IMG/VR virus record: IMGVR_UViG_3300011116_000391
Location: 1-34,782 of that record
Reading direction: 5' to 3' (one strand)
Source of the DNA: a virus
Length of the DNA: 34,782 nt
Shown: piece after piece, positions 128 through 9,517 of the stretch
Layout of the letters: each line of letters starts with the position of its first letter
Numbering within the stretch: position 1 is the first letter of the stretch
The notes under the pieces: generated by a model
Databases searched by the model: none
What the model was told of the DNA's origin: nothing
The model's input: only the letters and a program-made list of their open reading frames with translations
Position numbers and translations under genes: made by a program

Positions 128-451
128 TAGCAGTTCCAAGTCGATATACTGCGCTAACTTCAACTTGTCCACCCTCATTTGCAGGTCGTATTTCACCCCA
201 TCGAACTTGATTTGTGTCGGTATGTGTTCAGCACTCGGCAAGGTCATTATAAACTGTAACTGCTCCATCATTGCGGCATAGTCCTCAATATCCACACTGC
301 CGATAATATCTTCACTCAACCCGGTTATGATAGATAGCATCTTGATGTCTTTTTCAAGTACAAGCGTGTCGGGTAGTTTGGTCAGTGCGTAGATTTCTTG
401 ATACTTGCCGATGTTGATGTCGCTCCAGTCGTTTGGTAGTGTTACTCTCAT
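1..451 (-). CDS. Tail assembly chaperone (G-like), N-terminal part, split by the contig break
   Basis: This is the first part of a 207-residue protein that starts at 451 and continues from 34655 to its stop at 34483. It begins MRVTLPNDWSDINIGKYQEI and is mostly helical by composition, with no membrane segment or enzyme motif. Size, position among late genes and a slippery T run with an overlapping -1 frame near its end suggest a siphovirus tail assembly chaperone that holds the tape measure protein and recruits tail tube subunits. The start ATG overlaps the TerL stop (ATGA), so the two are probably translationally coupled. The chaperone call is inferred mainly from architecture; residue similarity was not searched. 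Confidence 0.6.
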   Translation of the reverse strand, partial: MRVTLPNDWSDINIGKYQEIYALTKLPDTLVLEKDIKMLSIITGLSEDIIGSVDIEDYAAMMEQLQFIMTLPSAEHIPTQIKFDGVKYDLQMRVDKLKLAQYIDLELLSKTSDEIIYNMHKILAIFLSNTKQYNTEDMLRRAEIFKAKMT

Positions 452-1629
452 CTGAATAGAATTACTTTGTTTATGTGTTTGGTCAGTCTGCAATGGTTTG
501 CAAGGGCAAGGGCACACACGGTATCATCGTGCATCCCATCAGGTGCAGAATAGCGCACCCCTCGTGCTGAATAGCTGTACTCGAATGACTCCATTTCTTC
601 TTGCATTACCCCACTTAAAATAGAAACTTCCTGCTTTTGTACCGATGTCGCAAGTTCCAACATTATCTGCTGTTTGCTTTCACTGGTAAACTTAAACCCT
701 TGTGCGTTCGGGCATACTTTAACCAATTCTTCCACAATCGGGTCGCCAACACCCGTGCTGTCGATTAGTGCAGGTGTTGTGCCGATAAGCATTTTCAATA
801 TCGCTGTGGTGCTGCTCCAATCCTTTTGGAAGCGTTCAAAATATGCTATGCTGCCGTTCTCATTCAACCCAACGATGCAGGTGTAGTCACTTGACTTCGC
901 AAGGTCAACGCCGTAAAAGTGTACGTTTGTTGGGTTTACTTTCGCTTGTGACTGCTTTCTGATATAATCAACCCCGAATGGGTTGGCTGCATTCTCATTG
1001 AACATAGCCATATATTCTTGATTGAATGCTATTTCAGGCAAGTCATTGCGTGCTGCATCTATTTCTGATGATTCAATAAATGGGTTTGTGTATGTGCTCA
1101 TTTGCCAACTCGCCCAGTCTATATCGCCCTGACCTTTAACGAATAGCTTGTAAAAGTCGTTTTTGCCTTTAGGCGTAGATAAAAACCAAGCACTGCCCCT
1201 TAAATCGGTTAGCGTTGGTCTTATACTTTCAGTCCATAACGCCCATAAATTCTTTGCAAATGCCGCCTCATCAACTATGGCTACTTTATACTTGCGTGAG
1301 CGACCTGCAAAGGGGTTGTCCATTGTCCAAAAATCTATCCTGCCACCCGTAACAAGTTCGATAAATTGATTGTCGTGCTTTCTCGATATGGCAGGCTTTA
1401 ATAAGTTTTGCAGTTGAGTATATGTGTTTTCAAGTAGTTTATATGTCGGCGTGAAGTAACCACACGGATACTTTTTTTTCGCTGATGCAATTATCAATAA
1501 GTGTGCTGCAAGATAAGACTTACCCCAACGCCTGCCGCAATCAACTACGTTAAACCTGCGCCTATTCTTTACGATTTCATTCTGCGCTTGGTGTAATGTC
1601 GGGATCGTAACTACTGGTTGATTCATCAA
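448..1629 (-). CDS. terL: Terminase large subunit
   Basis: The DNA-packaging motor ATPase and headful or cos nuclease that docks on the portal. Of 393 residues, the N-terminal ATPase domain has a Walker A CGRRWGKS (31-38), a Walker B VAIVDEA (116-122) and a coupling motif STPKG (about 151). The C-terminal RNase H-like nuclease starts at YGVDLAKSSDYT, with Asp242 as the first metal ligand; later acidic residues occur in IDSTGVGDP and HDDTV. The protein is rather short for TerL but has both domains. It overlaps the small terminase by 53 nt and the chaperone gene by 4 nt. Two adjacent ATG codons (1629, 1626) could each start it. Confidence 0.93.
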   Translation of the reverse strand: MMNQPVVTIPTLHQAQNEIVKNRRRFNVVDCGRRWGKSYLAAHLLIIASAKKKYPCGYFTPTYKLLENTYTQLQNLLKPAISRKHDNQFIELVTGGRIDFWTMDNPFAGRSRKYKVAIVDEAAFAKNLWALWTESIRPTLTDLRGSAWFLSTPKGKNDFYKLFVKGQGDIDWASWQMSTYTNPFIESSEIDAARNDLPEIAFNQEYMAMFNENAANPFGVDYIRKQSQAKVNPTNVHFYGVDLAKSSDYTCIVGLNENGSIAYFERFQKDWSSTTAILKMLIGTTPALIDSTGVGDPIVEELVKVCPNAQGFKFTSESKQQIMLELATSVQKQEVSILSGVMQEEMESFEYSYSARGVRYSAPDGMHDDTVCALALANHCRLTKHINKVILFR

Positions 1630-2020
1630 CTATTTTAACGGTTATCTGCTTATCCCCTGATTCTTGCACCTTATCTGCCATACCTAATTGGCGTGCTATT
1701 AAATTCTCTTTGTATAGACCTACTGCCGCCCGATTGAAGTTGTGTGAGTAGATATTCTTTCTTATACGTGTAATGATGGTACGATATGCTTCGTATGAAC
1801 TATCTGTATTAGCTGAATAATGACCTAAATCCTGAATTATATCGTTATCTGCAAGCCAACATTCGAAACCCTCAAATGTCATCGGCTCTTTAACTTCTAA
1901 ATAGACTACCCCCAATTTAACGTGCGACTGCGGTATTTTTAATATTTGTAACGAATCTTGATATTTTTCAAATAACTCCCACAGTTGTTCAGGTGTTTTG
2001 ATGTATTTAGTCTTTGCCAT
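1577..2020 (-). CDS. terS: Terminase small subunit
   Basis: A 147-residue protein lying directly upstream of TerL and overlapping it by 53 nt, the usual place of the DNA-recognising terminase subunit. It has a KEPMTFEGFECWL segment and a basic YRTIITRIRKNIYSHNF helix followed by ALxKENLIARQLG-like sequence, a pattern I associate with small terminases of Bacteroidota phages. The acidic, disordered C-terminus ends in PDITPSAE. It follows the FkbM methyltransferase gene, overlapping its end by 14 nt, so packaging genes seem to be transcribed together with the glycan genes. Name from context and segment pattern. Confidence 0.7.
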   Translation of the reverse strand: MAKTKYIKTPEQLWELFEKYQDSLQILKIPQSHVKLGVVYLEVKEPMTFEGFECWLADNDIIQDLGHYSANTDSSYEAYRTIITRIRKNIYSHNFNRAAVGLYKENLIARQLGMADKVQESGDKQITVKIVDESTSSYDPDITPSAE

Positions 2021-2576
2021 AAATAAAGTTGTAGTCTGTTAAATGTAATAATTTATACCCATTACGCACAATGTGGTTCAAAAGTTCAAGATTGTATTTG
2101 CCCAGTGTGTTATATTCTGCAATGATCAATCTCGGCTCATCGTATTTCAACAATTCGGTTATGATGTCGTATTCCATCCCCTCAACGTCGATGCTGACTA
2201 AATCAAAGTGCTTCCAATGCTGCATCAGGTCTTTTACCGATATGCACGGCACGATGTCATTGCCGCCTATTTTCCCAATTTCAGGTATGCTGTTGAATTC
2301 AAATCCTATCGTTCCCGTATGTGTTGCCGTTACTGCTTTCTTTATTCGATTGCGACCCGTTGCTGCGTAGCTGTTATCATATACCGGGTTCGGCTCATAA
2401 CAAACCCCTGACCAGTTCGGCAGGCTATCCAATACCCTTGTGTTGCTGTTGACTTCTGCATCTGCCGCCCCGATGTCCAAGTACGTGTATGTGTCGTTGC
2501 TAAATAGCGTTGAATAGTTGTCCATCAACCATTTATCTTCGCCACGTTGTGAATGATATTTAATACTGCGCTCCAT
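2007..2576 (-). CDS. FkbM-type SAM-dependent methyltransferase
   Basis: Probably O-methylates a sugar or similar small group. The SAM-binding motif YLDIGAADAEVNSNT is followed by CYEPNP (acidic ribose-binding turn) and LVSIDVEGMEYDIITELLKY, the FkbM signature. The N-terminal SQRGEDKWL is also typical. I chose the ATG at 2576 (189 residues), which overlaps the upstream glycosyltransferase by 17 nt; an ATG at 2618 would add 14 basic residues. It ends the run of sugar genes and overlaps the small terminase. The substrate is not visible from sequence; in this context a phage-made glycan is the likely acceptor. Confidence 0.85.
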   Translation of the reverse strand: MERSIKYHSQRGEDKWLMDNYSTLFSNDTYTYLDIGAADAEVNSNTRVLDSLPNWSGVCYEPNPVYDNSYAATGRNRIKKAVTATHTGTIGFEFNSIPEIGKIGGNDIVPCISVKDLMQHWKHFDLVSIDVEGMEYDIITELLKYDEPRLIIAEYNTLGKYNLELLNHIVRNGYKLLHLTDYNFIYGKD

Positions 2577-3285
2577 TATGAAAGGGTATAATCGTTTCGT
2601 CAATGTGTTTCGCTTCAACGGACTTATCTACAAAGTGCCGTTCGCCTTTCCATATCAGATGCCAGTCAAAGCAATAGTTCGGGTCATCGCTTTGTAAATG
2701 CCCAAGCGTGCAATGCCTGCCACGTCTGAAACGTAATACCTCAAATGCGTTCCTGCTGATTAGACAAAAGCCTATGTTTGCGTGGTCGCATTCGATTAGG
2801 TTCGGTGCTATTTCTTTGATGCCGTACTGATGCCCGAATATATATTCTGCTCCCTTGTGTTCGTTTCTGCCCCTTACATAACCGCCTATGATCTGCTTAT
2901 TGCGTGAAAGTAATTGCGTGATGGTGTTGCTCGGTATGACCATATCAGTATCGACAAATAGAATGTAGTCAGCTTGTAGGTCGATTGCTGCATCTATGCT
3001 TCGGTTGCGCCCCTCACATATCGGCACCAGTCGTGCTTGGTCTTGGTCGTATGTAGGTTTCTTCCACCAAGTGCTTTCGTAGTTCCAAAAGTCAAAATGT
3101 GTTTTTATCGCATTGTCCTGCGTGAAGTCAATCAACGGCTGAAAGTTTGCTTTGTCTTTCGTTTCTACGTTGTGATAAACTTCGTAATTGTCGTATGACA
3201 GTGAATATACCGATTGCAGGCAGTTCATCTGATTGTGTGCCTTTCGGTCACAATGTAGAATGCAGACTAATACTTTTGGATTCAT
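2560..3285 (-). CDS. Glycosyltransferase, GT-A fold
   Basis: A 241-residue protein with an N-terminal nucleotide-binding strand KVLVCILHCDRK, an EGRNRSIDAA stretch and a DTD metal/nucleotide site at residues 112-114 (ILFVDTDMVIP). A later GGYVRGR and DPNYCFDWHLIWKG complete an Anp1/GT2-like pattern. No membrane segments, so cytoplasmic. It overlaps the epimerase upstream (38 nt) and the methyltransferase downstream, indicating one operon that makes and transfers a sugar. The donor sugar and acceptor cannot be read from the sequence. Confidence 0.82.
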   Translation of the reverse strand: MNPKVLVCILHCDRKAHNQMNCLQSVYSLSYDNYEVYHNVETKDKANFQPLIDFTQDNAIKTHFDFWNYESTWWKKPTYDQDQARLVPICEGRNRSIDAAIDLQADYILFVDTDMVIPSNTITQLLSRNKQIIGGYVRGRNEHKGAEYIFGHQYGIKEIAPNLIECDHANIGFCLISRNAFEVLRFRRGRHCTLGHLQSDDPNYCFDWHLIWKGERHFVDKSVEAKHIDETIIPFHNGAQY

Positions 3286-4183
3286 TTAGTTTGATGTTTA
3301 TTCCTTGTTCTAATGTTACGGTCGGCAGGTAATATTTAAGCAGTTCGGTTTCGTCGCCGCATCGGTATGCAGGTCCAGTCGGCTTGGTTATGTCGGTTTT
3401 GATATACGGCGTTTGCCCCCACATCTGTTCGTGTGCCATCGTTGCCAGTTCAATGAATGATGTCGGTATGCCCGTGCATAGGTTTATTGCATTCGCTTTC
3501 GTTCGTTCCTCACTTAATATCATTGTCGCATTGACGATGTCTGATATGTGAATGAAGTCACGTACTTGGTTGCCGTTCCCCCATATTTCAATAGGGTGCT
3601 GCTTTTCAACTACACGCTTGATGATGCTCGGGAATGGATAGGTTAAGTCCTGCATCAGCCCATAGCCGCTGAATGGTCGAAGTACGGTGACCTTTTTATC
3701 GTATTCGATATGCAAGCGATGTGCTATCATTTCACCCGTTAATTTAACCCACCCATATGTCATATCAGGCTGCCTGATGTCGTATAGGTCAATGTCCACT
3801 TCTTTTAACTTATATACTGATTCCTGCAAGTGTATCGGATATGCGGCTGAACTGCTGAAATATATAATGCGTGTATGCTTCGGGCAAGACTTTACCCAGT
3901 TGAAGAATTCTGCATCGATGGATAGGTCTGATGCGACTGCTATCTGATTTTTTTCAAGGTTCAGGCGACCGCCAACCACTGCTGCACAATGAATGATTAG
4001 GTCGAATTTAGGCTTTATGATTGCAAATAACTTCCTGCAATCGGTTTCGTAATATTTATCCCAATAGTTGTGCGTTTCTTTCACGATGTCGTTTGCGTGA
4101 ACTTCCCACCCCTCTTGTTTCAGGTATTGACAGAAGTACCTACCTACGAAGCCGCTTGCTCCCGTTAATAGCGCTTTTTTCAT
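3248..4183 (-). CDS. NAD-dependent sugar epimerase/dehydratase (extended SDR)
   Basis: Acts on a nucleotide-activated sugar, with NAD(P) as cofactor. The Rossmann motif GASGFVG is at residues 8-14, the catalytic serine region YFSSSAAYP around 108-116, and the YxxxK pair at Tyr143/Lys147 (YGWVK). VLRPFSGYG and WGNGNQVRDFIHISD match the substrate-binding part of GDP-fucose synthase or UDP-glucose 4-epimerase relatives. At 311 residues it is full length. It supplies a sugar donor, presumably to the glycosyltransferase encoded next. The product sugar is unknown. Confidence 0.9.
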   Translation of the reverse strand: MKKALLTGASGFVGRYFCQYLKQEGWEVHANDIVKETHNYWDKYYETDCRKLFAIIKPKFDLIIHCAAVVGGRLNLEKNQIAVASDLSIDAEFFNWVKSCPKHTRIIYFSSSAAYPIHLQESVYKLKEVDIDLYDIRQPDMTYGWVKLTGEMIAHRLHIEYDKKVTVLRPFSGYGLMQDLTYPFPSIIKRVVEKQHPIEIWGNGNQVRDFIHISDIVNATMILSEERTKANAINLCTGIPTSFIELATMAHEQMWGQTPYIKTDITKPTGPAYRCGDETELLKYYLPTVTLEQGINIKLNESKSISLHSTL

Positions 4184-4409
4184 ATATCGTGTAGTTTGTT
4201 TGTTCGTATAACCGCTTCATCATATCCTGCACACAAGATGGGCAAGATAGGTCAGGCGGCGGCATTGTGCTGAATATCTCAACGTGTACCGATAGCATCG
4301 TCATCAGGTGCGACTGCGACTGATTATCGCCTGCCACAAATCCTGCTATTCGCCACGTGTTGTATGTCGTGAACGCTGACTTTAATCGTTCGTATTGTGA
4401 TTGGTTCAT
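4140..4409 (-). CDS. Unknown 89-residue protein with CPSC motif
   Basis: Start chosen at 4409, where ATG overlaps the stop of the upstream membrane-protein gene (ATGA); a longer frame to 4463 would lie deep inside that gene. The protein contains a PPPDLSCPSCVQDMM segment, in which the CxxC could bind metal or be redox active. No other domain is recognised. It overlaps the start of the epimerase gene by 44 nt. A function linked to the neighbouring CxxC membrane protein or to the sugar genes is possible but only positional. Confidence 0.6.
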   Translation of the reverse strand: MNQSQYERLKSAFTTYNTWRIAGFVAGDNQSQSHLMTMLSVHVEIFSTMPPPDLSCPSCVQDMMKRLYEQTNYTIYEKSAINGSKRLRR

Positions 4410-4669
4410 TGTTTGGTTATGTATTTTGAAATCAGATACCCTGCGAACATCGAAGTGAAGCACAAAGGTATTAATATTTGCAATGATATATTAAACATTA
4501 CGCCCTGCATTAGGCATATCCAAAAAGATAGACACTTAGTGCAATCGAATGGCTTTAACCTCTTGATGTTAAAAAACCATTTGAACGTCTGCACTACGTT
4601 GCTGACCGGGTAGATTGCCGCCGCTATGAACGGTGAAAGTATCAATATCCATTCACGATGAAGTTCCAT
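4406..4669 (-). CDS. Small membrane protein, DUF1360-like
   Basis: An 87-residue protein with about three hydrophobic segments (ILILSPFIAAAIYP; LSFWICLMQGVMFNI; LIPLCFTSMFAGYLI). Between the first two lies KPFDCTKCLSFW, resembling the L-x-C-x-x-C-x-x-F-W motif of DUF1360 membrane proteins found in phages and bacteria. Its function is unknown. It overlaps the end of the sigma/glycosyltransferase gene by 28 nt and is coupled to the CPSC protein by ATGA. It may sit in the inner membrane. Confidence 0.65.
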   Translation of the reverse strand: MELHREWILILSPFIAAAIYPVSNVVQTFKWFFNIKRLKPFDCTKCLSFWICLMQGVMFNISLQILIPLCFTSMFAGYLISKYITKQ

Positions 4670-6342
4670 AGCTGTACCCTTTTTTTGTTTACCGTGTCGA
4701 TGTGAAATTTTACTTTCACTGATTCATATAAGGCTTCGCCATACTCTTGTCGCATTGCAGGGGATTCAATAAGTCGCTTCATCTGTTTGTACCAGTCTTT
4801 GTGATTTTTGTGCGAATCGACCGCCACAAAGTTACTGCCGTTGTAATGCGGTGAATAAGGTAATATGTTTGAAACGATGCAAGGCTTTTTTTTGAACCCT
4901 GCTTCTGCAAGTTTCAATGGCGACTTACATCGGTTGAACTCATTGTCTTTTAGCGGAACAAGGCATATATCCATCTCATCAAGTATGTACCCATAGTTGA
5001 ATACGTCTTTGCCCCATATACGCTTGTAGCGTTCGTTAGTGGTTATTGCGGCAGGCTCAAACTTCTTTAACTCTGCTTTGTATTCATCACTGCAACACGT
5101 GTATCGGTCGGATAAGATTAGTTCGTATTTATATGATTCCTGCATCTGCATCGGCGTTGGTACTTCAATCAGTTTGCCATCTTCACCTATCTGCAAGTGC
5201 TTTTGACCATTGCTGAACCCCCCATATACAACCTGATACTTGCCTTTCATATTGTCATCTTGATGCAGTCTGTGTATGCAGTTGTCCATTAATGACAAGT
5301 CAGGTAAATGACAAATGCCGCCTTGCCACCCTACCCGAACCAATTCCGATGGCGTTGCCGTGCTTGACCATTGCGGCTGTTCAGGGTTGATTGCGTTCGG
5401 CAGTACTTCAATATTCGGGTTGTAGTTGCGTAGCTTGTCAGCAAGATATGTCGTTGTAGTCGTGATATAATCTGCCGCCCTTATCGTGTCAACAATCATA
5501 TTGCTGTATTCCTTTTTGAACGTATCATACAATACGTGGTCGTGTGGCAATATCCAATAGTCATCAATGTCATATAAGACCTTGCAACCTGCTTTCTTTG
5601 CCCGTTCAATGATTGTAACCGGATTCGTGAATCGGGATGCCTGCCTCGTGATTACCAACAACTGATAGTCTTTGAAAAACTGCTCCGTTGCATCTTCTAT
5701 GTTGTTGATTAGCGTGATGTCGATGTGCTTGTAGTTCTCGCCGATATGGTAGGCAGGAATAAGACTGCGATGGTATTCAACGCCGCCCTCTGGCACATTG
5801 CGAAGCATCAGTACCTTATACGGTTGATTGTTCATATATTCTTTGATTTGTTGTTTGCTTTTCTTTAGGCTGAAGTGTATAGCCGAAATGGGGATGCCTG
5901 TTTCTTTGTGCAGCTTTCGTATTGAACCTTCTGCGACATAGTGCTGCAATATGCGTGCATCGTAGGGGTATTTCCCTTTGCTTGATTGCTGCTTTTCTTG
6001 TTCTTTGATGTACTCTTCGAGCGTGGCTTCATCGTATTGATTTGTTTCGTCAAAGGTAATGATATTTGTATGCTTGTCGGTCAGTTCATCGTGCAGGTGC
6101 TTTCTGTATTTGTAGTTGAATGTGCTACGTGGACTATTCCACATTGTCATCGTGATGCGCACTGCAAACCACTTGATGTTGTTCGCTCCCTGCTGTTCGA
6201 TTGCGTTCAGCTTCTTTTTGTCGTATTCAAGCAGGCATATAAGTACTTCCTGATATAGGTCGTCAGTAAGGCAGTGGTTGTTCGTTATCTTTTTACAGAT
6301 TTTTTTTAGTTCATCGCCCGTGTATAAGTCTTGAAACGTCAT
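4642..6342 (-). CDS. Sigma-factor-like domain fused to a glycosyltransferase
   Basis: A single 566-residue frame with two unrelated parts. Residues 1-169 resemble a sigma-70-like protein: NNHCLTDDLYQEVLICLLEYD looks like region 2 and YVAEGSIRKLHKETGIPISAI (about 135-155) is a region-4-like helix-turn-helix. From Met170 (NNQPYKVLMLRNVPEGG) to the end the protein looks like a group 1 (GT-B) glycosyltransferase, with YDIDDYWILP, VLPNAINPEQP and a C-terminal CKSPLKLAEAGFKKKPCI segment typical of the donor-binding half. An internal start at Met170 (5835) could give the glycosyltransferase alone. It overlaps RuvC upstream by ATGA. Stand-alone versions of both halves are what I would expect; the fusion is unusual. 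Confidence 0.8.
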   Translation of the reverse strand: MTFQDLYTGDELKKICKKITNNHCLTDDLYQEVLICLLEYDKKKLNAIEQQGANNIKWFAVRITMTMWNSPRSTFNYKYRKHLHDELTDKHTNIITFDETNQYDEATLEEYIKEQEKQQSSKGKYPYDARILQHYVAEGSIRKLHKETGIPISAIHFSLKKSKQQIKEYMNNQPYKVLMLRNVPEGGVEYHRSLIPAYHIGENYKHIDITLINNIEDATEQFFKDYQLLVITRQASRFTNPVTIIERAKKAGCKVLYDIDDYWILPHDHVLYDTFKKEYSNMIVDTIRAADYITTTTTYLADKLRNYNPNIEVLPNAINPEQPQWSSTATPSELVRVGWQGGICHLPDLSLMDNCIHRLHQDDNMKGKYQVVYGGFSNGQKHLQIGEDGKLIEVPTPMQMQESYKYELILSDRYTCCSDEYKAELKKFEPAAITTNERYKRIWGKDVFNYGYILDEMDICLVPLKDNEFNRCKSPLKLAEAGFKKKPCIVSNILPYSPHYNGSNFVAVDSHKNHKDWYKQMKRLIESPAMRQEYGEALYESVKVKFHIDTVNKKRVQLWNFIVNGY

Positions 6343-6776
6343 AAGCCATACACTAACATTGCCGCATCTCGCAGTTCCTGATTGGTTCGCTTGTCATACC
6401 CGGTTAGCTTCTTGAACATTACCGCATCGACCTTTGACTTTTTCGGCACGATTAGTTTATACTGATAGTTGTTGCGGATGCAGTACTGTTCAATCAATTT
6501 GCCCGTTGCGTGGTTCTCGCCCACGTTCTTGGCTATCTTTTGCGATACGACATTATTGCCTGCGTGCCAGTTACTTTTTTTGTTCATCCACCCTGCTTCA
6601 ATATGCGTGATTGTCCTGCGTGTCTTATAGCTTTCATTCAGGATGTCAAGCACATCAAAGAATGAAGCGTTTATCAACTGCATCTTGTCTTGTGCGTAGC
6701 GGTCATAAATGCATAACCCCGACTTATCAAGGTCAGGGTCAATGCCGATATACAATATGTGATTGATGTACGTCAA
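6339..6776 (-). CDS. RuvC-like Holliday junction resolvase
   Basis: A 145-residue RNase H-fold nuclease. The first catalytic aspartate is in YIGIDPDLDKSG (Asp13), the glutamate in THIEAGW (Glu60), and the C-terminal acidic residue in ELRDAAMLVYG (Asp137). It probably resolves branched DNA before packaging. No ATG precedes the first active-site strand; the likely start is the TTG at 6776, overlapping the stop of the upstream exported-protein gene (TTGA). Lies just before the sigma/glycosyltransferase gene, with ATGA overlap. Confidence 0.8.
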   Translation of the reverse strand: MTYINHILYIGIDPDLDKSGLCIYDRYAQDKMQLINASFFDVLDILNESYKTRRTITHIEAGWMNKKSNWHAGNNVVSQKIAKNVGENHATGKLIEQYCIRNNYQYKLIVPKKSKVDAVMFKKLTGYDKRTNQELRDAAMLVYGL

Positions 6777-7193: not shown

Positions 7194-9449
7194 TTATTGT
7201 GCGGTTATTGTTTTAGAAGTTGACCAACTGCCCTGCCCCGTTTGGCATCGTGATTGCGATTGCACTTCGTATGTCGTGCCACGTACTGCCCCAACGGTTA
7301 TCGTCAATCCATTTGTTGTGTTTTCTGTCCACGCCGTTGTTCCATTTGCCCTATATCGTATTGCGTAGAACTTGCTGCCGTTATTTACGAATGTAGTTGT
7401 TATCCTGCCATTGCTTGATGCAAGGCTGAAATCGGGTGCTGCTTGCGTGATTGCAGGTATTACCGATGTGATTTCGGATGCAGTCGATTTCGCCCCATTG
7501 GTACACGTTGCCGTAACGATGAAGCGCACCGATGCGTTCGCCTGAAAGTTAAACGATGCACTTGTTCCGGTGATGGTCTGTGAATTGATGCTGCCATTGT
7601 TTACGCTGTGCTGAACAAGGAATGATTGATATGTTGTGTTCGGGGTGATGTTTAACGTAGTGCCGTTGCAGGTGGTTGTTGCCGATATGGTCGGCTGTAA
7701 GCAACTTGGTGGCGGCGGCGGCGGTGCGCCCACATTCACATAGGCATAGGCATCTGAAGTGCATCCGTTTGCTGAAGTTACAAGTACGTTGTACCCCGTT
7801 GCGGTTGTTGGTGCAATTGTTATTGACTGCGTTGTCTGATTCGGATTAACCGTGTACCAATTATACGTGTATGGCGTTGTGCCGCCCGTTGCATTTGCCG
7901 TGATGACCGTTGATGTGCCTGATACAACCGATGCAGGTGCTTGTATTGTTGCGTTCAGTGCCGATGTGATGTTCACCGTTCTTGTGGTCGTGTTACTGCC
8001 ATTTGTATTCGTTGCCGTTAGCGTGATGGTTTTGCTGCCTGCTGTGGTGTAGGTAACGGTCGGATTGAACGCCGTTGACGTGGCTGGCGTGGCTCCTGCT
8101 CCGAAGTTCCAAGTGTATGTCGTCGCCTGCTGTGATTGGTTGTTCATCGTCAATGTGTTGCCTACACACGTTGAACTCGGTTGCGTAAAGTTTGCCACTG
8201 GCAATGATGTCGCCGATGCGAATGTTCCGGTCAGGTAATAACGACCAACACTACCATATCTTGTGTTTGCAGGTATGTTGCCGATTGGATTGGTGCTGTA
8301 ACAGAAATCGGTATAGTTCGGGTTGCCAGATGCAGATACCTGAATGAAGTATGTTCCGGCAGGTTGATTGATTAATGATATAGTTGCGTTCAGCTTGTTT
8401 ATGTTTGAGTCAATAGCGATGACCGTGCCTGCCGCATTGCGAATGATCAGCCGCACGTCAAGCGTTGCATATTGGTTATCTGATGTCGATTTGCTCAATG
8501 ACCACGGTCGGCAGTTAATGGTCATATTCTGCGCCGCCGTTGTCGTTACCCTGAAGTAGTCGTCATCGTATGTGATTGCAGGCAATGTTGCATACTTGAA
8601 TGATGTCAAACTGCCGTAGTTATGAATGATTAAACCTGAATCCGATATGGCATTGTTTACGATGTTGATTGCCTTTGCCGTTGCGGTCGTGCTGCCGATG
8701 TCGTCTGCTTTGAATGAAATTGCTTTGGAATGACCCGTAAAACCATCGCCGCCTAATCGCTCCAACGTCATTTCTGCAAAGTCATCTTGCCAATTCGGCA
8801 TATTGAAGCCGCCCGAAATTCTATACCCACACGGACCGCCGACTGGTCCTGCAACCCATTGTACGACATTCAAGCCATACCCCACACCCATCATCGGACA
8901 CCACGATGTTTCGCCCGTTCCCTTTCCGAAATGATATGCCCCTTGTGGTTGATTGGATGAATTATACTGTGCGTGATGCAATAAGTGCAACTGATGCCCT
9001 GCTTCGTGTACTGCTGCATTTGCCATTGCTTTCATACCGCCTGATGTTAAATTCGAAGTGAATACCCATCCCGGCTCATAAGCCTGCCATCCCCACGAAC
9101 CGATGAATGCAATTCCACCTACACCGCCATACCATTCACTTGTCGGGGTAAATACGATGCGCTGTTTCTTTGTTGCCAGTGCCGCATTATATACTGCAAG
9201 CGATGTGGTGACATTAAGGTCGAATATCGTGTAATGGTTGGCAATAATGTTAAAGCATTCCGTGATTTGTGCAGATGTGAAACCTGATGGGGCTGCGTTT
9301 ATCGTCGTTGCGCTCCAGTTCGGATTGTTCACCACTGCGCCATCGAAGTCAAGATATAAGACATTCTGCGAAGTTGGAAGCGATTGCAGTATCGGTACTT
9401 GTGCAGATAATGCTGAACATATCAGCATAAAGAGTAGTGTGATTCGCAT
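7194..9449 (-). CDS. Secreted metzincin-like zinc metalloprotease with PKD/Ig-like domains
   Basis: 751 residues. Residues 1-16 form a signal peptide (cut at ALSA|Q). Residues 25-230 are the protease: HEAGHQLHLLH at 148-158 gives three zinc histidines and the catalytic Glu149, and CPMMG (184-188) fits a metzincin Met-turn. The usual metzincin glycine at the eighth position of the zinc motif is His here. Residues 245-412 resemble a pre-peptidase C-terminal beta domain, 417-495 a PKD domain (YTWNFGAGA; GSKTITLTATN), then an Ig-like domain, a proline run near 580 and a fibronectin-like end. No type IX sorting tail is seen. Expected in a bacterial secretome rather than a phage; it may degrade surface or matrix protein, or be a virion or lysis factor. 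Confidence 0.85.
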   Translation of the reverse strand: MRITLLFMLICSALSAQVPILQSLPTSQNVLYLDFDGAVVNNPNWSATTINAAPSGFTSAQITECFNIIANHYTIFDLNVTTSLAVYNAALATKKQRIVFTPTSEWYGGVGGIAFIGSWGWQAYEPGWVFTSNLTSGGMKAMANAAVHEAGHQLHLLHHAQYNSSNQPQGAYHFGKGTGETSWCPMMGVGYGLNVVQWVAGPVGGPCGYRISGGFNMPNWQDDFAEMTLERLGGDGFTGHSKAISFKADDIGSTTATAKAINIVNNAISDSGLIIHNYGSLTSFKYATLPAITYDDDYFRVTTTAAQNMTINCRPWSLSKSTSDNQYATLDVRLIIRNAAGTVIAIDSNINKLNATISLINQPAGTYFIQVSASGNPNYTDFCYSTNPIGNIPANTRYGSVGRYYLTGTFASATSLPVANFTQPSSTCVGNTLTMNNQSQQATTYTWNFGAGATPATSTAFNPTVTYTTAGSKTITLTATNTNGSNTTTRTVNITSALNATIQAPASVVSGTSTVITANATGGTTPYTYNWYTVNPNQTTQSITIAPTTATGYNVLVTSANGCTSDAYAYVNVGAPPPPPPSCLQPTISATTTCNGTTLNITPNTTYQSFLVQHSVNNGSINSQTITGTSASFNFQANASVRFIVTATCTNGAKSTASEITSVIPAITQAAPDFSLASSNGRITTTFVNNGSKFYAIRYRANGTTAWTENTTNGLTITVGAVRGTTYEVQSQSRCQTGQGSWSTSKTITAQ

Positions 9450-9465
9450 CGTTTTTTATGCGAAT
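9442..9465. promoter_or_regulatory. Perfect inverted repeat over the metalloprotease start codon
   Basis: ATTCGCAT and ATGCGAAT (8 bp each) flank an 8-nt spacer. In the minus-strand mRNA the start ATG is the first three bases of the 3' arm, so a hairpin would hide it. It could equally be a DNA operator. It is the only such repeat in the 68-nt gap ahead of this gene. Confidence 0.55.
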
Positions 9466-9517
9466 GTAACAAGTTTTAATTTTTATGACTTCGCCAATAT
9501 GTGAGTTAGTAGTAATG

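Follow-up and report, generated by a model that had tools for sequence, protein, structure and literature searches.

Does a phage reading frame that runs from a sigma-factor-like sequence straight into a glycosyltransferase-like sequence represent a genuine gene fusion, and what could the joined product do? The question is raised by one gene of the virus record IMGVR_UViG_3300011116_000391, of which the stretch analysed (the window) comprises 34,782 bases. The source phage is of the Bacteroidota type. A reading of the sequence alone had described an uninterrupted frame of 566 codons at 4642-6342, which is confirmed and lies on the minus strand; read on the plus strand, 4642..6342 contains many stops. 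The gene probably encodes a 566-residue bifunctional protein, in which an extracytoplasmic function (ECF)-like sigma factor with sigma-2 and sigma-4 domains is joined to a GT-B glycosyltransferase, and which was derived from two genes of one operon. This proposal is based on sequence comparisons, which show a single frame, a fusion that is conserved, two halves that are each under purifying selection, and separate or overlapping versions of the two genes in other phages. The parts of the gene are:

4642..6342, minus strand: fused gene, 566 codons without an internal stop
5836..6342, minus strand: sigma-like half, residues 1-169, with region-2-like DDLYQE at residues 27-32 and a region-4-like helix-turn-helix at residues ~127-168
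4642..5835, minus strand: glycosyltransferase half, residues 170-566 and the stop codon, predicted GT-B fold, GT4-like

Conservation and origin of the fusion

About 80 related contigs were gathered using the large terminase subunit of the window as a query. The same 566-residue fused frame is present in contigs L001 and L002 (99-100% identity) and L003 and L004 (~76%), and partially in L021. Together with the window, six contigs from different metagenomes and two clades share the same joint. The ratio of nonsynonymous to synonymous substitution rates (dN/dS) between the window and L003 is 0.155 in the sigma half, 0.151 in the glycosyltransferase half, and 0.077 at the joint, with dS of 1.1-1.3. 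Such low ratios at dS above 1 indicate purifying selection on both halves and on the joint.

A scan of bacterial genomes identified a 548-residue fusion (L104) with 34% identity to that of the window in the soil Bacteroidetes bacterium 2013_40CM_41_45. It combines the same two kinds of protein, and its joint is at the same place as in the window clade, within the sequence I-K-x-x-Met, in which the methionine is kept as Met157. The fusion is thus not restricted to the window clade. The 38 kb surrounding L104 contain tail and terminase genes, as read by eye, and the locus is therefore most likely a prophage. It differs from the window in the type of its terminase and in a longer glycosyltransferase operon, which resembles that of contigs L007-L010. 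The large terminase subunit of the window has no match in the genome of the L104 host, the scan of viral contigs with the L104 fusion gave no relatives, and none of 50,697 phage genome records covers most of it.

Separated versions of the two genes were looked for in related phages, as the sequence-only reading had suggested, and were found at 50 loci. There, a stand-alone sigma-like gene (~165-180 aa) is followed, 186-3,928 bases downstream on the same strand, by a stand-alone glycosyltransferase gene of the same family; the interval usually contains a gene for a small PFDC..CLxxW-motif protein, often accompanied by a second small-protein gene. In L007-L010, the start of the glycosyltransferase gene overlaps the end of the sigma gene by 14 nt in a different frame, and the glycosyltransferase gene is the first in a long series of genes encoding glycosyltransferases and FkbM proteins. 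The order is reversed in the Chitinophaga prophages L109 and L110, in which the sigma gene overlaps the end of the glycosyltransferase gene. Because related phages keep both proteins as neighboring separate genes, the window gene is a genuine fusion, most likely of two genes of one operon.

In the tree of glycosyltransferases, the fused L104 forms a group with L008 and L010, which are unfused (support 99/98), and the window clade is positioned outside this group. The fused state must therefore have changed at least twice: according to the tree, the genes either fused on two occasions, or fused once at an early time and later came apart. Such a separation is quite possible, because the joint is identically placed in both fused lineages and the overlapping pair is one base off at that place. 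The idea that the overlapping pair of L007-L010 is an ancestral intermediate is unsupported, since the tree places the fused L104 with L008 and L010. The separate genes, the genes overlapping in either order, and the genes fused in two distant lineages form a natural series, on which it could be tested whether two phage products are tied together equally well by fusion, by overlap, and by translational coupling.

Identity of the two halves

The assignment of residues 170-566 to a GT-B-like enzyme, made earlier from the sequence alone, holds. They match the glycosyltransferase family PHROG 7162 with an E-value of 2e-51 over profile positions 4-304 of 309, and a profile built from 32 relatives identifies the GT-B enzymes MshA and PglA in the PDB (1e-5 to 6e-4). 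The half is modeled with high confidence in the full-length predicted structure, and Foldseek searches with a model of this half retrieved PglA, MshA, GlgM, and BshA (E ~1e-12 to 1e-10, probability 1.00), all of which have the GT-B fold. The fused enzyme retains all 26 invariant columns of its family. Residues 170-566 are thus predicted, from sequence and model, to form a cytoplasmic GT4-like glycosyltransferase with a GT-B fold. The region of the donor site, KSxLKxxE, is shared with the GT4 enzymes MshA, BshA, PglA, and GlgM, whereas the overall identity to them is 10-14%. The glycosyltransferases of PHROG 7162 and of phi92-like phages belong to the same family and align over nearly their full length, with ~28% identity to the phi92 enzymes; however, they are encoded by stand-alone genes and lack the sigma-like N-terminus.

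The sigma-like half matches two NCBIfam models nearly end to end, PRK12522 (1e-5) and TIGR02937 (sigma70-ECF, 3e-4), and Sigma70_r2 in Pfam (0.002), where a separate match to region 4 was not found. Its 169 residues are collinear with positions 12-163 of the 165 positions of TIGR02937, so that both region 2 and region 4 are covered. This length, and that of the stand-alone relatives, agrees with the 160-190 aa of ECF sigma factors composed of sigma-2 and sigma-4 only. TIGR02937 is matched by half of the aligned family members (16 of 32, best 2.8e-7). The core motif of ECF sigma-2, D-D/E-L-x-Q-E, is near-invariant across the family. The fused copy, which has 19-34% identity to the stand-alone members, retains the near-invariant positions D28, L29, Q31, E32, L37, M67, F75, I150, P151, and K167. 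When the family profile was compared to the PDB, the top match was an unrelated helix-turn-helix protein, and the ECF sigma factor SigW was matched end to end (0.0014); the SigW sigma-4 chain was also among the matches (0.0047). The predicted structure of the half is all-helical (pLDDT 79), with helices at residues 127-138, 141-148, and 152-168, and sigma factors (SigL, SigH, RpoE, and SigW) make up nearly all of the top-ranked Foldseek matches. A search of the 50,697 phage records with this half gave zero matches. A mixed full-length alignment of fused and stand-alone sigma sequences was set aside, its stand-alone rows being misaligned.

Several observations weigh against a working sigma factor joined to a typical GT4 enzyme. 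The sigma matches score below the curated cut-offs (20.3 bits versus 42.9 for TIGR02937, and 18.3 versus 24 for region 2 in Pfam). The pTM of the sigma-half model is 0.47, and its Foldseek matches are non-significant (E ≥0.15, TM 0.27). A promoter recognized by the predicted sigma factor was not found. In the glycosyltransferase half, the first glutamate of the EX7E motif of retaining GT4 enzymes, including the four named above, is replaced by Cys472, while the second, E480, is invariant; the sugar chemistry of the enzyme is therefore unsure. The half also scores below the curated Pfam cut-offs, with 20.8 bits versus 28.5 for Glyco_transf_4 (half alone) and 15.1 versus 26.4 for Glycos_transf_1.

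The low sigma scores, the non-significant structural similarity, and the strong divergence of the family would be expected if the N-terminal half were a sigma-derived regulator that binds DNA or polymerase, acting as an anti-factor or co-factor, and the enzyme joined to it were an ordinary glycosyltransferase. We consider this unlikely, but deserving of serious attention. Against it, the matches span regions 2 and 4, they recur in many family members, and the DDLxQE core is near-invariant. The similarity to sigma-70 proposed in the sequence-only reading therefore stands as a collinear and family-wide relationship detected by profile searches, and fails as a match above any curated cut-off or as a significant structural similarity. 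Because the matches, while sub-threshold, are collinear and shared across the family, we take residues 1-169 to be a divergent ECF-like sigma protein, with a limited but appreciable doubt as to whether it is a working sigma factor.

Known C-terminal extensions of ECF sigma factors include SnoaL-like, TPR, Cys-rich, and carbohydrate-binding domains, according to a review of ECF sigma factors (PMC8999054). The groups ECF41, ECF42, and ECF56, as described there, resemble the window protein in having an extra domain after sigma-4; the sigma part of the window protein, in contrast to those groups, fails the curated cut-offs. A text search of this review showed glycosyltransferases as gene neighbors (ECF248) and not as fused domains (PMC8999054). 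Text searches of the open literature likewise gave no sigma-like protein fused to a glycosyltransferase, and the window gene thus adds a type of C-terminal extension that is undescribed in the literature searched. Sigma-like proteins of the same family with another C-terminal extension, of ~70 residues and without a Pfam match, are encoded in three other contigs (L024:4551-5282, L025, and L026).

Products and role of the fused gene

The number of products made from the gene depends on the use of Met170, which the sequence-only reading had named as a possible internal start. Two features are relevant:

5833..5835, minus strand: Met170 codon, presumed former start of the glycosyltransferase and candidate internal start, aligned with the start methionine of stand-alone copies and with Met157 of L104
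5830..5868, minus strand: joint stretch, codons 159-171, without a synonymous change relative to L003; suggestive

It is improbable, but conceivable, that initiation occurs mainly at Met170, that the free enzyme is the important product, and that the fused form is minor and has no role of its own. The methionine is kept in two fused lineages at the position where the stand-alone copies start, and the glycosyltransferase of L007-L010 begins within the end of the sigma gene. The sequence context of Met170 resembles that of a real start: among the window's genes, its score is reached by 21 of 37 real starts but by few of the in-frame internal ATGs (6 of 166); however, an A-rich context is also expected from the Lys/Gln-rich helix encoded there. 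The synonymously unchanged run at codons 159-171 comprises 10 comparable codons (P 0.009 for that run alone) and is the third strongest in the gene. The strongest run, 556-566, coincides with the stretch that the fusion shares with the following gene and serves as a positive control, and the run 199-211 is as strong as that at the joint and has no explanation. Synonymous constraint is thus present at Met170 but is not special to it. Furthermore, purifying selection acts on the sigma half and the joint, and the frame has not acquired a stop where they meet the enzyme half. We regard the chances that ribosomes also start at Met170, yielding a free enzyme of 397 residues, as evenly balanced. The alternative of two products from one gene is compatible with Met170 as far as the free enzyme is concerned, whereas a sigma protein on its own could arise only through proteolysis, since translation meets no stop codon before the glycosyltransferase half.

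The possible role of the fused protein can be judged from the neighboring genes, which are:

6339..6776, minus strand: RuvC-like Holliday junction resolvase (PHROG 1770, 3.6e-20)
4406..4669, minus strand: 87-aa small protein with the motif (R/K)PFDC..CLSxW, whose motif relatives come after the sigma gene in most related phages
4140..4463, minus strand: small CxxC protein (SCPSCVQDMMKRL), a constant neighbor
3248-4183, minus strand: NAD-dependent epimerase of the glycan cassette 2007..4183 (Pfam PF01370, 3.9e-36)
2560-3285, minus strand: GT-A-like protein of the glycan cassette, weak assignment (PF03452, 0.004)
2007-2618, minus strand: FkbM methyltransferase of the glycan cassette (PF05050, 4.2e-9)
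1577-2020, minus strand: terminase small subunit, named by position and sequence reading
448-1629, minus strand: terminase large subunit, named by sequence reading and position

The stop of the resolvase gene overlaps the start of the fusion by 4 nt, and the gene of the 87-aa protein overlaps its 3' end by 28 nt. The fusion follows the replication genes and immediately precedes those for the terminase and the structural proteins, a position consistent with a middle or late regulator. The sigma half may guide the RNA polymerase of the host to promoters of the phage, which from the gene order would be those of the terminase and structural genes. The glycosyltransferase half would act in concert with the neighboring epimerase, GT-A-like protein, and FkbM methyltransferase, and the most plausible acceptor of its sugar would be a glycan of the virion or of the host surface; these neighbors make DNA a less likely target. 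In the simplest view, the fusion would fix the co-production of the sigma factor and the enzyme and would not require any coupling of their activities. Late transcription and any such coupling are inferred rather than shown; the link to late transcription proposed earlier agrees with the gene order, from which alone it derives, and no promoter set was found that would extend it. The phage T4 sigma factor gp55 is comparable in its expected role of redirecting the host polymerase to phage genes and, unlike the window protein, has no fused enzyme (PMC2988020, PMC7892883). If the sigma function is true, a widespread and largely unannotated family of sigma-like proteins exists in Bacteroidota phages.

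By analogy with the SnoaL-like or TPR extensions of ECF41 and ECF42, the glycosyltransferase domain might instead be a regulatory C-terminal extension, through which the state of sugar nucleotides or the activity of the enzyme switches transcription. The two genes lie close to each other, in one order or the other, in many divergent phages and occur fused in two lineages, as such a link would suggest; however, separate proteins suffice in most relatives, and the family-invariant positions and the glycan-gene neighbors are those of a working enzyme. The full-length model contains no confident contact between the halves, and the pLDDT of residues 1-104 is below 50. A single helix, residues 152-171, spans the joint in this model and the first strand of the glycosyltransferase begins at residue 175 (175-180), which suggests that there is almost no linker. 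We find a regulatory extension hard to credit. Still more doubtful is mutual control of glycan supply and phage expression, in which the sigma half would bring the enzyme to the transcription machinery or the glycosyltransferase would sense sugar nucleotides.

An assembly or sequencing error that deleted a stop or displaced the reading frame could in principle create such a fusion from a gene pair like that of L007-L010, whose overlapping frames differ by a single base. The recurrence of the same in-frame joint in five other contigs, within two clades whose dS exceeds 1, and in a prophage unrelated to them excludes a missed frameshift for practical purposes.

Upstream elements and variable gene content

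The proposed bifunctional protein is encoded in an operon with two conserved elements near its upstream end. A 751-aa reprolysin-like metalloprotease (a sub-threshold match) with PKD domains is encoded at 7194-9449 on the minus strand, and also in L002-L004. At 9440-9470 on the minus strand there is a perfect 8-bp inverted repeat, ATTCGCAT-N8-ATGCGAAT, and the start codon of the protease-like gene is inside its 3' arm. The repeat is kept in L002, L003, and L004 despite divergence further upstream, has an RNA fold z-score of -2.8, and resembles an operator or an element acting in translation. Upstream of it, at 9470-9510 on the minus strand, AACTCACATATTGGCG is largely conserved in L002, L003, and L004 and may be the promoter or operator of the operon. 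As this element occurs only once in the window, it was rejected as a sigma-specific promoter motif, and no regulon motif can be claimed. A scan for Bacteroidota-type -7/-33 promoters gave no informative pattern.

The PFDC..CLSxW small protein is probably a membrane protein and, together with the small CxxC protein, accompanies the sigma and glycosyltransferase genes in nearly all relatives. Its relatives come after the glycan cassette in L007-L010, and those of the CxxC protein adjoin it in L007-L010, L071, L109, and L110. The cassette between the small CxxC gene and the terminase varies in content. The epimerase, GT-A-like, and FkbM methyltransferase genes of the window (2007-4183) are replaced by a DNA methyltransferase in L001 (2182-3510), a GT2 glycosyltransferase in L004 (8133-9571), and a methyltransferase-GT2 fusion with an aminotransferase-like gene in L003 (8194-10109). 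The fusion in L003 (8194-9477) is of another kind than that of the window, with a PF13578 methyltransferase and a PF00535 GT2 domain encoded in one 427-aa gene.
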